DNA of 41,458 nt from a virus: IMG/VR virus record IMGVR_UViG_3300023223_000229, positions 1 to 41,458 of that record; one strand, given 5' to 3'. Below the pieces are notes generated by a model that searched no databases, was not told the DNA's origin, and saw only the letters and a list, made by a program, of their open reading frames with translations. Position numbers and translations under genes: made by a program. The number at the start of each line of letters is the position of its first letter. Within the stretch, counting starts at the first letter, position 1. Below, one piece after another: positions 2,826 through 40,235 of the stretch.

Positions 2826-2831
2826 TATAAT
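2826..2831 (+). promoter_or_regulatory. Rightward -10 element TATAAT downstream of the HTH gene
   Basis: A consensus TATAAT follows a T-rich stretch (TTTTTAAGTTTTGTTTAG), in the style of Campylobacterota promoters. It would start transcripts near 2838 that run into the 2895-2920 hairpin. Confidence 0.45.
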
Positions 2832-2887
2832 ATACACAGTAGATTACACGACTTGTTTTGATAATAATTAAAACATTAGACAACGAT

Positions 2888-2920
2888 AAAAAAATTAAAG
2901 TCTATTCCCGTAGGCTTTAA
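2888..2920 (-). terminator. Hairpin with leftward-facing T-tract
   Basis: TTAAAGTCTA (2895-2904) pairs with TAGGCTTTAA (2911-2920) around a TTCCCG loop: 10 bp with one wobble. Seven A's at 2888-2894 read as seven T's on the minus strand immediately after the hairpin, the layout of an intrinsic terminator for leftward transcription. Every gene around it is rightward, so it would terminate an antisense transcript. For rightward RNA the nearest T-tract (2932-2936) is too far to be convincing. Confidence 0.5.
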
Positions 2921-2947
2921 CTCTCTTGTGTATTTTTAGTTTATTTT

Positions 2948-2956
2948 TGTTATAAT
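2948..2956 (+). promoter_or_regulatory. Strong extended -10 promoter for the replication leader
   Basis: TGTTATAAT at 2948-2956 is a perfect TGnTATAAT after a T-rich periodic stretch (gtatttttagtttattttt). The predicted start is near 2963, so the RNA opens with the highly structured segment that precedes the 54-residue ORF and the replication initiator. Confidence 0.6.
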
Positions 2957-2962
2957 ACATTA

Positions 2963-3094
2963 TCAGTTTTAGAATCGCACTCATTGGAGTGTCTTAGTGA
3001 GCGTCCTAGTTCTTGGAAGCTCTTGCCACTTGGTAAGGGCGTTCACTAAGTTCTTAATTGAGTGATTTATGGAATTAGGACGCCTCAAAATCAC
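2963..3094 (+). ncRNA. Structured 5' leader RNA with competing stems or pseudoknot
   Basis: This fills the only gene-free stretch above 300 bases. Stems seen: H1 CACTC 2978-2982 with GAGTG 2987-2991; S2 2993-3003 with 3040-3050 (11 bp, one G-U); H3 CTTGCC 3022-3027 with GGTAAG 3032-3037, inside S2; S3 3001-3012 with 3072-3083 (12 bp, one G-U); outer pairing of 3060-3067 with AATC..ACTC 2974-2982; TTGAG 3058-3062 with CTCAA 3084-3088. S2 and S3 share bases 3001-3003 and interleave, so they compete or form an H-type pseudoknot. It could be a riboregulator of the downstream initiator, an immunity-type RNA, or a leader with another trigger. Confidence 0.55.
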
Positions 3095-3126
3095 AAACTT
3101 GAAATTTTAATGTTCCGAAAGAAAAC

Positions 3127-3291
3127 ATGAATGCAAAAACAATGACAATAATGTCTGCACTGTGGATAATGGCTTATATGGTAGGTTTCTTTTTAGGAGA
3201 GGATTCTGTATCTTTAATGATTTGTCTATTAATATCTAGTATGTATATTATAGGAAGTGCAATAGTGCAAAGATTAGATAATGGCAACTAA
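3127..3291 (+). CDS. 54-residue two-helix membrane protein or leader ORF
   Basis: ATG at 3127 opens a 54-residue frame with two hydrophobic segments (about residues 7-23 and 28-46) and a short polar tail. Its stop lies 11 nt inside the replication initiator gene, whose own start has only a weak ribosome site, so its translation may be coupled to this ORF. It could be a real small membrane protein or mainly a translated leader for the initiator. Confidence 0.5.
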   Translation: MNAKTMTIMSALWIMAYMVGFFLGEDSVSLMICLLISSMYIIGSAIVQRLDNGN

Positions 3292-3892
3292 ATTTATAAC
3301 AGTGCCAATTGAGATAATGCACGATAAAAAGCTTTCACCAAATCAAAAGTTTATACTTGCTGAAATAAGTCAATTAACATCATTAGAGAAGGGGTGTATA
3401 GCTTCTAATAATCATTTTAGTGAGTTAATAGGAATTAGCAAAGCAGGTGTTTCTAATGCCATTACAGACTTAGTTAAAAAGAACTATATTGAGATAGATA
3501 ATTCTAATACTAAACGTAATTATGGAAGAGTTATTACTATACACTCAGATGTACCCCCTCTACACTCAGATGTACAAGGTGTACACTCAGATGTAGAGTC
3601 TAAAGAGAATAAAACAATTAATAAAACATCTAATAAGAAACCCTTTGATTTATTCATTGAATACTTAAAGAAAAATGCAAGTATTAAAAGCAAAGTAACA
3701 ACTACTAAAGAAACTAAAAAGCTATTCGACTTAATAGAAAACAAGAATCAATTAGTAAAAGATTATTTACTGCATCAAAAAGATAAAAAAGAATTCTCAC
3801 AAAGATTAACTCCTTTCTTATTGGATTATATACCTAAAGAGAAAGTTCCTAAATACAGACCATGTGATGCTAATGGGAATCTTACACTATGA
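3281..3892 (+). CDS. Replication initiator / replisome organiser with HTH
   Basis: A 203-residue protein. Residues 1-75 form a winged-helix domain of the phage replication-protein type (FITVPIEIMHDKKLSPNQKF, then SNNHFSELIGISKAGVSNAI, then LVKKNYIEI). Residues 87-107 contain three copies of a 7-residue unit beginning HSDV, encoded by exact DNA repeats (see the iterons). The C-terminal half is basic and helical and may contact the helicase or loader. The layout parallels lambda O: N-terminal DNA-binding domain, origin inside the gene, helicase genes downstream. Its stop overlaps the DnaB-N-like gene. Confidence 0.72.
   Translation: MATKFITVPIEIMHDKKLSPNQKFILAEISQLTSLEKGCIASNNHFSELIGISKAGVSNAITDLVKKNYIEIDNSNTKRNYGRVITIHSDVPPLHSDVQGVHSDVESKENKTINKTSNKKPFDLFIEYLKKNASIKSKVTTTKETKKLFDLIENKNQLVKDYLLHQKDKKEFSQRLTPFLLDYIPKEKVPKYRPCDANGNLTL
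3540..3595 (+). repeat. Three iterons, putative replication origin
   Basis: TACACTCAGATGTA occurs identically at 3540-3553, 3561-3574 and 3582-3595, with a period of exactly 21 bp (two helical turns). Each unit has TACA/TGTA dyad arms. The repeats lie in the initiator gene's linker region and are followed by an AT-rich stretch (about 3600-3645), which could be the unwinding element. The array resembles the origin inside lambda O. Confidence 0.7.
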
Positions 3893-4233
3893 GGGCTTCA
3901 ATAGAAAGATGTATGCTATCAACATTCTTATACAGAGATTTAATGAGTGATAGAGATTTTGATAAGATAATTGATTACACTATACCCTACAAGCTATTTA
4001 CAGCTAACAGAACGCACAAACTGATAGCCAAGAGTATATTTAATCTCCAAGAGTTAGATTTGCCCTTCACGGAGCTATGCGTGGTTGATTACGTTTCTAA
4101 GATTGAGAAGATAAACGAGGTTGAATGGTTGGAAGTTATGAGCGCAACTCCAATTACTTTAAACACAATGTTTGGATATGTAAAAATCCTTGAAAGAATG
4201 GCGAATGAAGATTATATTAGGAGCATGAGATAA
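3889..4233 (+). CDS. DnaB N-terminal-domain-like protein, helicase partner
   Basis: A 114-residue protein resembling only the N-terminal domain of DnaB helicases: an opening E-R-x-x-L-S-T-x-L, LFTANRTHKLIAKSIF, a hydrophobic VDYVSKIEKI segment, and NTMFGYVKILERM. In DnaB this domain forms the trimer-of-dimers collar and binds primase and loader. There is no Walker motif, and the ATPase is encoded separately at 4953. It starts within the initiator stop (ATGAG) and ends in a TAATG overlap with the next gene. Confidence 0.55.
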   Translation: MRASIERCMLSTFLYRDLMSDRDFDKIIDYTIPYKLFTANRTHKLIAKSIFNLQELDLPFTELCVVDYVSKIEKINEVEWLEVMSATPITLNTMFGYVKILERMANEDYIRSMR

Positions 4234-4952: not shown

Positions 4953-6011
4953 ATGGATATACAAGAACTAAAAACTCTAAAACAAAAACTAACAATTGAA
5001 AAGGTTGGACTTAATAGCTTAAATGATGTTATTGGTGAATTAAAGATTGATAAGCAAATAGCAGAATTAGATATTAAAATTATAAATATCTTATTGCCTA
5101 AAAATTCAAGTACAAAATTATTCCAGCCTATGAAGTCAAAAAATATCAAAGCTGTATCAATGGAAGTAATAGGACAAGATTACATTCCTTGGATAAAAGG
5201 GGCTTATAATGTTCTTGCGGGTCGTGGGGGTTCTGGTAAATCAGGGATAGCATTAAAGTCCATGATTAAATGGTTAAATCTAAACCCAACAAAACAAAGT
5301 TTATCTTTCTTTACAGAGGACGGAATAACAGAGATAAAAAAAAGATGTAGAAATATTTGTGAAACTCTTGGCTTAAATTTCAATGAGATAGATGACAGAA
5401 TCCATTATATAAGTTTAGATAATGATGACCGTATAAAATGGGTTACAGAAAATCGTGATGGATATAATATTAATTCAGATTACATTGAAGAGGTTAAAAG
5501 TTTCTGTTTAGATAATTCAATTGAGTTTATTATCCTTGACCCTTTAAAAAGGTTTCATTCATTAAGTGAAAATTCTAATGATGATATGGATATTTTAGTT
5601 AGAGATATTTTTACAGATTTAGCAGTAAAAACAAAAGCTGTATTAATTGCATTACATCATAGTGCTAAAGCTCAAAACGGAGCAAGGGGAGCAAGTACTA
5701 TTACAGATTCCGCACGTATGGCTTGGCAGATTGAAAAGTTTTTTGCAAAAGATGAAAATGATAAAATTGTGCCAGACCCAAATAAAAAAGACAGAATCAA
5801 GCTAGAAATCATTAAGGATAATATGGGAATTGAAAAACTTTGTACTATTCGAGAAGATGATAACAGCATTGATAATCCTTTAAGTGGGATATTTACGATT
5901 AACCCAAGAAGGAATAGTGACCCGATACAAGTTACAGAATATCAAAGTGAACCAGTAAACAATGACAAGATAGAAGGCTTTGAGCTTGACATGTCGATAT
6001 TAACAGATTAA
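4953..6011 (+). CDS. RepA-like replicative DNA helicase (RecA-fold ATPase)
   Basis: A 352-residue protein. Walker A is GRGGSGKS at 90-97. TEDG at 121-124 may hold the catalytic glutamate. Walker B is FIILD at 192-196. A sensor-like ALHHSAK lies at 233-239 and a possible arginine finger in RGAS (245-248). This is the pattern of hexameric RepA/DnaB-type helicases encoded by phages and plasmids. Residues 1-60 form a coiled coil rather than a DnaB N-domain, which fits the separate DnaB-N-like gene upstream. The ribosome site is AAAGG. Confidence 0.8.
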   Translation: MDIQELKTLKQKLTIEKVGLNSLNDVIGELKIDKQIAELDIKIINILLPKNSSTKLFQPMKSKNIKAVSMEVIGQDYIPWIKGAYNVLAGRGGSGKSGIALKSMIKWLNLNPTKQSLSFFTEDGITEIKKRCRNICETLGLNFNEIDDRIHYISLDNDDRIKWVTENRDGYNINSDYIEEVKSFCLDNSIEFIILDPLKRFHSLSENSNDDMDILVRDIFTDLAVKTKAVLIALHHSAKAQNGARGASTITDSARMAWQIEKFFAKDENDKIVPDPNKKDRIKLEIIKDNMGIEKLCTIREDDNSIDNPLSGIFTINPRRNSDPIQVTEYQSEPVNNDKIEGFELDMSILTD

Positions 6012-7233: not shown

Positions 7234-7256
7234 GAAAGGCGGTGATTTATTTCTAG

Positions 7257-7282
7257 GGGAAGTTTCACAACTTCCCTTTTTT
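7257..7282 (+). terminator. Rho-independent terminator of the tiny unit and replication operon
   Basis: GGGAAGTT (7257-7264) and AACTTCCC (7269-7276) form a perfect 8-bp stem with a TCAC loop, followed by six T's (7277-7282). It faces rightward and overlaps the end of the M15 peptidase gene. Confidence 0.85.
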
Positions 7283-37625: not shown

Positions 37626-37647
37626 ACTAAAACTATAACTCTAAGAA

Positions 37648-37738
37648 TAGATAGAAGGGATTCGAACCCTCGGTAATAATTTATTATCACTCTTTAACTC
37701 TATCATTTTTGCGCCTTAAACCACTCAGCCACTATCTA
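37648..37738 (-). tRNA. Class II tRNA-like gene (Ser/Leu type), probably degenerate
   Basis: Minus strand: acceptor arm TAGATAG/CTATCTA (7 perfect pairs), TG, D-arm GCT-GAGTGGTTTAA-GGC, a long variable arm GTGATAA-TAAA-TTATTAC, and a T-arm GAGGG-TTCGAAT-CCCTT. The anticodon region (CAAAAATGATAGAGTTA) cannot form a 5-bp stem, and no U33 plus Ser/Leu anticodon is evident; 'GAT' would be the nearest loop reading. No CCA is encoded. It may be a pseudo-tRNA, or need another fold. Confidence 0.5.
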
Positions 37739-39770: not shown

Positions 39771-40235
39771 TCAGAAGGGAATCTCGTCTTCATCTATGTT
39801 AATCTCTGGGATTGTTGTTTGTCTAATGCCTTGTTGATTTACACATTCTCCACCGCCTTGTGGTGCGTTTTGCATATTTTGTTGCCGTGGTGCTTGGCTT
39901 TGTGGATTATCTGACTTTCTATCAATAAAACTAAATGACTTTAAACTAATAACTACTTTATCTCTCTTAGTTCCGTCTTGGGCATCCCATCTCTCTTGGT
40001 TAAGCTCTCCCATGATTCCAATTCGTGAGCCCTTCTTGAAAAAGTTATTTAGCGTTTCCGCTTGTTTTCCAAATACAGATACATTAAAAAATGATACCTT
40101 TTCAACTTTCACACCTTCTTTATTTTTGTAGTCTTGATTAACTGCGATACTGAAATTTCCTAAACATTGTCCGCTTGGAAGATATTTTAATTCTATATCT
40201 CTTGTCATTGTTCCTATAATATTAATACTGTTCAT
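39771..40235 (-). CDS. ssb: Single-stranded DNA-binding protein
   Basis: A 154-residue OB-fold SSB: MNSINIIGTMTRDIELKYLPSGQ, FSIAVNQDYKNKEG, FFNVSVFGKQAETLNNFFKKGS and a Gln/Asn-rich linker ending in the acidic tip DEDEIPF that binds partner proteins. Preceded by AAAAGGAATAAA. Serves replication and recombination. Confidence 0.92.
   Translation of the reverse strand: MNSINIIGTMTRDIELKYLPSGQCLGNFSIAVNQDYKNKEGVKVEKVSFFNVSVFGKQAETLNNFFKKGSRIGIMGELNQERWDAQDGTKRDKVVISLKSFSFIDRKSDNPQSQAPRQQNMQNAPQGGGECVNQQGIRQTTIPEINIDEDEIPF

Follow-up and report, generated by a model that had tools for sequence, protein, structure and literature searches.

A covarying pseudoknot RNA with a conserved competing fold heads early operons of uncultivated phages

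Control of early phage genes by structured leaders has been described for a small number of model phages. In plasmids of the ColIb-P9/IncB type, repZ is controlled by a pseudoknot, a coupled leader ORF and an antisense RNA. In the operator of the T4 replication gene 32, the site of gp32 autoregulation, a pseudoknot at the 5' terminus precedes a ribosome-binding region that is unstructured and rich in UUAAA (PMC535899), and the putRNA of phage HK022 is an RNA of about 70 nt with two stem-loops, putL being located just downstream of the promoter PL (PMC9378689). Among these known systems, the T4 gene 32 operator is closest in layout to the RNA described here, which likewise possesses a 5'-terminal pseudoknot and an A/U-rich ribosome-binding region, as judged solely by sequence and covariation. 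However, the T4 pseudoknot spans about 28 nt, whereas our leader comprises about 108 nt, five helices and a competing fold; moreover, the gene behind it varies and is not ssb (the SSB gene of the phage from which we started lies at 39771-40235 on the minus strand). The HK022 putRNA and the ColIb repZ leader each differ from our RNA in defining features.

The DNA stretch analysed here, referred to as the window, is the viral IMG/VR record IMGVR_UViG_3300023223_000229 with a length of 41,458 bases. Searches with its terminase and capsid proteins gave scattered matches of less than 45% identity and no host assignment; its T-rich, extended -10 promoters presumably resemble those of Campylobacterota. 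On the plus strand, a first promoter, P1, has its -10 element TATAAT at 2826-2831 with TTGACT 18 nt upstream (a consensus match only). The second and proximal promoter, P2, has TATAAT at 2951-2956 within TGTTATAAT (2948-2956), a promoter that a first-pass annotation of this region had correctly pointed out; its transcript is expected to start at about 2963. In most of the 19 relatives described below, TATAAT, TATGAT, TACAAT, TATTAT or TAGAAT is likewise found at most 50 nt upstream of the first conserved helix, S1. The first ORF of the window's operon (3127-3291, plus strand) encodes 54 amino acids with two hydrophobic stretches, is not conserved in the relatives, and overlaps, as annotated, by 11 nt with the ATG at 3281 of the replication initiator gene (3281-3892, plus strand; O-like/HTH_36, matching the PHROG replication initiation proteins with an E-value of 3e-14). 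Behind the initiator lie genes for a weakly DnaB-N-matching protein, a methylase, an AAA helicase and NinG. AAAGGA or a similar Shine-Dalgarno sequence precedes most of the phage's genes, whereas no more than GAAAG stands before the leader gene and AAAG before the initiator; the weak ribosome site ascribed to the initiator is indeed present. Elsewhere in the window, a segment on the minus strand (37647-37738) matches the Rfam tRNA model with 36.1 bits and is not called by ARAGORN.

Between P2 and the first ORF, the plus-strand segment 2993-3100 forms a double-hairpin, kissing-type pseudoknot of about 108 nt and five helices. One hairpin consists of S1, in which CUUAGUGA (2993-3000) pairs with UCACUAAG (3043-3050), and of H1 within the S1 loop, GCUCUUGCC(ACUU)GGUAAGGGC at 3019-3040 (3019-3027/3032-3040). 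The other consists of S3, GUGAUUU (3062-3068) with AAAUCAC (3088-3094), and S4, AAGUU (3048-3052, overlapping the end of S1) with AACUU (3096-3100); S4 reads AAGGUU/AACCUU in most relatives. Both hairpins are joined by S2, whose 5' strand b, GCGUCCUAGUUC (3001-3012), pairs with b', GAAUUAGGACGC (3072-3083), in the loop of the S3/S4 hairpin. A small hairpin discernible in the sequence further 5', H0 (CACUC(AUUG)GAGUG, 2978-2991, plus strand), is variable in the relatives and not conserved. The first-pass annotation had noted two stems, 2993-3003/3040-3050 and 3001-3012/3072-3083, that share three bases and should hence form a pseudoknot or exclude each other. The former is continuous and actually reaches 15 pairs, the latter comprises 12 pairs with one G-U, the shared bases are 3001-3003, and both possibilities apply, as the pseudoknot is real and the two alternative folds are conserved.

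The reality of the pseudoknot is borne out by several measures. The folding energy of the leader has a z-score of -4.0, with none of 200 dinucleotide shuffles being as stable, and its pseudoknot score has likewise a z-score of -4.0, with none of 30 shuffles reaching the best score. In an alignment of 17 members, 92.5% of the cells of S1, S2 and H1 are standard pairs, as compared to 72.9% in shuffles and 32-46% when the strands are slid against each other; S1 alone is paired in 94.9% of the cells with both-side changes at 8/8 pairs, and H1 in 91.7% with both-side changes at 7/9 pairs. Covariation in relatives had been named beforehand as one test of the stems: cells changed on both sides number 81 for S1, S2 and H1 against 20.6 in shuffles (0/500 as high), and the covariation score of 0.602, against 0.218, was unmatched by any shuffle. 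As the alignment was fitted to a model of S1, H1 and part of S3 that lacked S2, the covariation of S2 is not a product of the fitting. The S3 strands pair in 92% of cases within their own sequence but in only 40% when partners are swapped between sequences, and those of S4 in 100% versus 55%, figures for which the segments were cut by hand, with a bias toward pairing.

Strand b has a second partner. The strand AGGGCGU at 3036-3042 (plus strand) can contribute to H1 (3036-3040), or it can pair with 3001-3007, the first six to seven bases of b, thereby extending S1, breaking the outer part of H1 and excluding S2. This extension is itself conserved in the 17 relatives: 95% of its cells are paired, and both sides have changed in nine cells, where shuffles give 2.2 (0/500). 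In L010, in L141 and in the second RNA copy of L035, compensatory changes maintain the pairing of b with both of its partners. Furthermore, in most members the energy gap between S1 plus H1 and the extended S1 is below about 3 kcal/mol, calculated for the isolated hairpins with the pseudoknot energy left out. Because the competing extension is conserved and the two hairpin energies are close, the leader RNA looks bistable, a view derived from sequence and energy only. The evidence for two competing folds can be followed base by base.

We found about 19 distinct relatives, all in contigs of uncultivated phages, which share the shape of this RNA in other letters. Searching with the window's initiator brought up phages that have, at the corresponding position, a pseudoknot of again different sequence, and the helicase led to L009 and L010. 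The conserved box ATTTWWTGTTCCGAAAG, used as a search pattern, retrieved L013, L014, L035, L040 and L049; a covariance model built from eight relatives (R1) retrieved L058, L062 and L063; and a further pattern search retrieved L138-L141 and L143. L177 was found by the extended S1 only, with no start codon in the query, and shows box and ATG again at the same spacing. An R1 match in L003 is a decayed copy. Most phages carry one RNA. Two are present in L014 and L035, each abutting an ATG; the second copy is recognized by R1 with E-values of 2.5e-12 and 0.015, respectively, and the latter has by eye a 13-pair S2, a 6-pair S3 and a 7-pair S4. Rfam covariance models yielded no match to the leader above chance at gathering or permissive thresholds. 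BLAST searches with the window RNA found no match in plasmids and, among named phages, weak short matches in three records only (best E-value 0.04, none convincing). GTDB genomes contained no prophage relative when searched with the initiator, and five pattern matches therein included no convincing member. Initiator relatives in HU1, ANDSL2_ph1, c5, Skulduggery and phi39:1 have, according to their annotation, a short gap or none upstream of the initiator. The RNA is an element without an Rfam family, and it is common to phages with unrelated replication initiators.

Positioned near the 5' end of early or replication operons, the RNA is followed by initiator genes in L058, L062 and L063, DnaB-N-like genes in L049 and L140, genes of the DUF6291/Phg_2220_C type or a small ORF preceding such a gene in L141, L040 and L010, Rha regulator genes in L014 and L035, a helicase gene at the second L035 copy and small ORFs in further cases. 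The initiators behind it belong to unrelated types. The RNA is tied to whichever start codon comes next and not to an initiator. This bears on the proposal that it acts in replication itself, as a primer or R-loop former at an origin, and does not control a gene. Replication genes do adjoin the RNA in most relatives, and about 450 nt downstream of it three perfect 14-nt repeats, TACACTCAGATGTA, recur with a 21-nt period inside the initiator gene (3540-3595, plus strand; three matches in 0/100 shuffles) as a candidate lambda-O-like origin. However, the occurrence of the RNA with unrelated initiator types, and its presence twice in two genomes, including sites before the Rha regulator and before a helicase, make an origin RNA a very improbable explanation. 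When translated, the iterons encode an HSDV peptide repeat, which is also found in L009.

The RNA is followed by a box, AUGUUCCGAAAG in the window (3110-3121, plus strand), which is present in the core relatives with the consensus (A/U)UGUUCYGAAAG. Its GAAAG (3117-3121) is a weak Shine-Dalgarno sequence 5 nt before the ATG at 3127, and this gap is 5-6 nt in most of the 19 relatives. Three other roles of the box were considered and discarded. It also opens a six-codon frame (3110-3130) whose overlap with the ATG reads ATGA, but a conserved peptide Met-Phe-Arg-Lys is contradicted by a stop codon in L062 and L177 and by a frameshift in L010. The longest complementary match to rRNA is 7 nt (E. coli 23S), and the partners of a small UGUUCC hairpin at the start codon vary among relatives. 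From the end of S4 to the ATG, the relatives have 24-26 nt, made up of an A/U-rich stretch and GAAAG; the folded block consequently ends at the 5' edge of the ribosome-binding site.

An exchange of genes around the RNA can be seen in two sister contigs. L138 (330-462) and L143 (13611-13743) are identical at 133/133 positions from the RNA through the ATG, the identity ending exactly at the ATG, while the 60-nt flanks on either side are 20-25% identical and the contigs are again nearly identical further out. The first gene and the part upstream of the RNA have therefore been exchanged around a constant RNA, which behaves as an exchangeable cassette. The constant spacing could instead reflect a module inherited as a single block. 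The comparison of relatives demonstrates the helices and the competing fold of this RNA as well as its position, its near-constant spacing and its independence from the gene behind it.

Taken together, the near-fixed distance to the ATG, the weak Shine-Dalgarno box and the variation of the gene suggest that the RNA acts where translation of the first early gene is initiated. It is probably a new element that controls translation in cis in early operons of phages, a reading of the sequence that we hold with moderate confidence. As the 5' leader of an early or replication operon, the bistable RNA would control translation initiation of the first gene as follows. During transcription, strand b would pair backwards, forming the S1 extension and hence one long hairpin; once the second hairpin has been made, b would pair forwards with b' to yield the kissing pseudoknot flanked by S3 and S4. 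The fold adopted, or a factor that binds one of the folds, would then determine the translation frequency of the first gene, and one of the two folds would represent the "on" state. In the window, the initiator lies behind the leader ORF and would be reached through the 11-nt overlap of the reading frames. Fold and ribosome access are linked indirectly, because S2 leaves the Shine-Dalgarno sequence of the core family uncovered; a nested model computed without the pseudoknot predicts GAAAG to be mostly open. More tentatively, the leader from S1 to the start codon may represent a new, modular class of phage RNA switch in which the partner choice of b tunes the translation of any early gene that follows, probably as a response to a signal of host or infection common to diverse phages; we regard this as possible, but doubtful. 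The RNA provides a concrete object to test whether early-gene translation is set by RNA alone or together with a common factor. Given the layout resembling that of T4 gene 32, SSB is a candidate binder; as a trans-acting factor it found no favor in our comparison, since SSB genes are present in 12/18 phages with the RNA and in 10/17 without it, counts from contigs that may be incomplete.

A location at the 5' end is equally expected of an element acting in transcription or in mRNA stability. A folded 5' end could shield the early mRNA from decay with initiation unregulated, and both the very stable fold and its proximity to the transcript's 5' end are compatible with this, but such a stabiliser leaves the competing fold, the conserved box and the fixed ATG distance unexplained; we consider it quite unlikely. 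Antitermination of the put type, in which RNA polymerase bound by its nascent transcript would, as with the HK022 putRNA, resist pause and termination signals of the early operon, appears unlikely as well. The RNA resembles putRNA in being a structured RNA that starts early phage transcripts: it adjoins an early-operon promoter, mostly in one copy per phage and sometimes in two, and putL has a corresponding place downstream of the early promoter PL (PMC9378689). However, size and fold differ, since the two stem-loops of putRNA have no long kissing helix (PMC9378689), and our RNA is tied to a start codon, while antitermination needs neither a constant start-codon spacing nor a conserved Shine-Dalgarno box. 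Moreover, the window operon has no internal intrinsic terminators to overcome; its sole terminator-like hairpin sits at its end (7255-7278), where the early and late gene blocks converge.

Control of copy number after the IncB/ColIb fashion was the interpretation initially offered for this leader. The pseudoknot would then serve translation of the initiator, be opened by the coupled leader ORF and be blocked by an antisense RNA. The window contains a pseudoknot in a replication leader in competition with another fold, the overlapping upstream ORF and the weak initiator site. The signals proposed to bracket the antisense RNA are likewise present on the minus strand: TATAAT at 3247-3252, and a candidate terminator at 2888-2920 between P1 and P2, a hairpin with T7 and a 10-pair stem with one mismatch. 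Yet TATAAT is not in excess in the window (85 occurrences against 80 +/- 8.5 expected), and a minus-strand promoter within 250 nt occurs in 4/19 relatives, about the number expected by chance, so that a conserved antisense promoter over the leader finds no support. No such terminator was seen in the other leaders; this absence is weakly tested, because the scan accepted uninterrupted stems only and missed the window's own mismatched hairpin. The short ORF fares no better as a part of the control: it is absent from the relatives, and the initiator stands directly behind the RNA in some phages and other genes in others. Its translation can also not open the stem as envisaged, given that the ORF starts 3' of the whole structure; there is no leader ORF between the start of the RNA and the pseudoknot, in contrast to repZ. 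With the RNA also preceding non-initiator genes, of the original proposal the pseudoknot and the mutually exclusive stems in a replication-operon leader stand, antisense promoter, coupled ORF and initiator link find no support, and we judge copy control of this kind to be highly unlikely. A pseudoknot in a replication leader need not mean plasmid-type copy control.

Leaders with a comparable architecture exist outside this family. Pseudoknot-scoring leaders precede related initiators in 16/54 cases, against 8/203 control segments. This enrichment, like the pseudoknots of L057 and L064 described next, speaks for the translational reading proposed above. In the sister phages L057 and L064, which have related initiators, a leader upstream of the homologous initiator or of the gene preceding it also forms a pseudoknot between a loop and a downstream strand, and the loop of its long hairpin can pair with the Shine-Dalgarno sequence of the next gene (L057, 3901-4003; L064, 1629-1720). 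It differs from the window RNA family, to which it has no sequence similarity, in that the 3' strand of the pseudoknot helix is itself the Shine-Dalgarno sequence. The leaders of L060, from a G+C-richer phage, L069, L070, L004 and L006 have the same general pseudoknot layout, again without sequence similarity to the family. A loop in L005 (5840-5975) carries UUGGCG, which we take to be the motif of ColIb/IncFII antisense-target loops, a single case that may be due to chance. In L047, a terminator-like hairpin with a T run at about 5868-5888 on the RNA's own strand separates the first promoter from the pseudoknot RNA; transcription from this upstream promoter could yield a short RNA. Finally, L010 harbors between promoter and pseudoknot RNA a tRNA-like sequence (3818-3905) with a T-arm-like GGUUUGAGUCC and acceptor-like ends of 9 bp.
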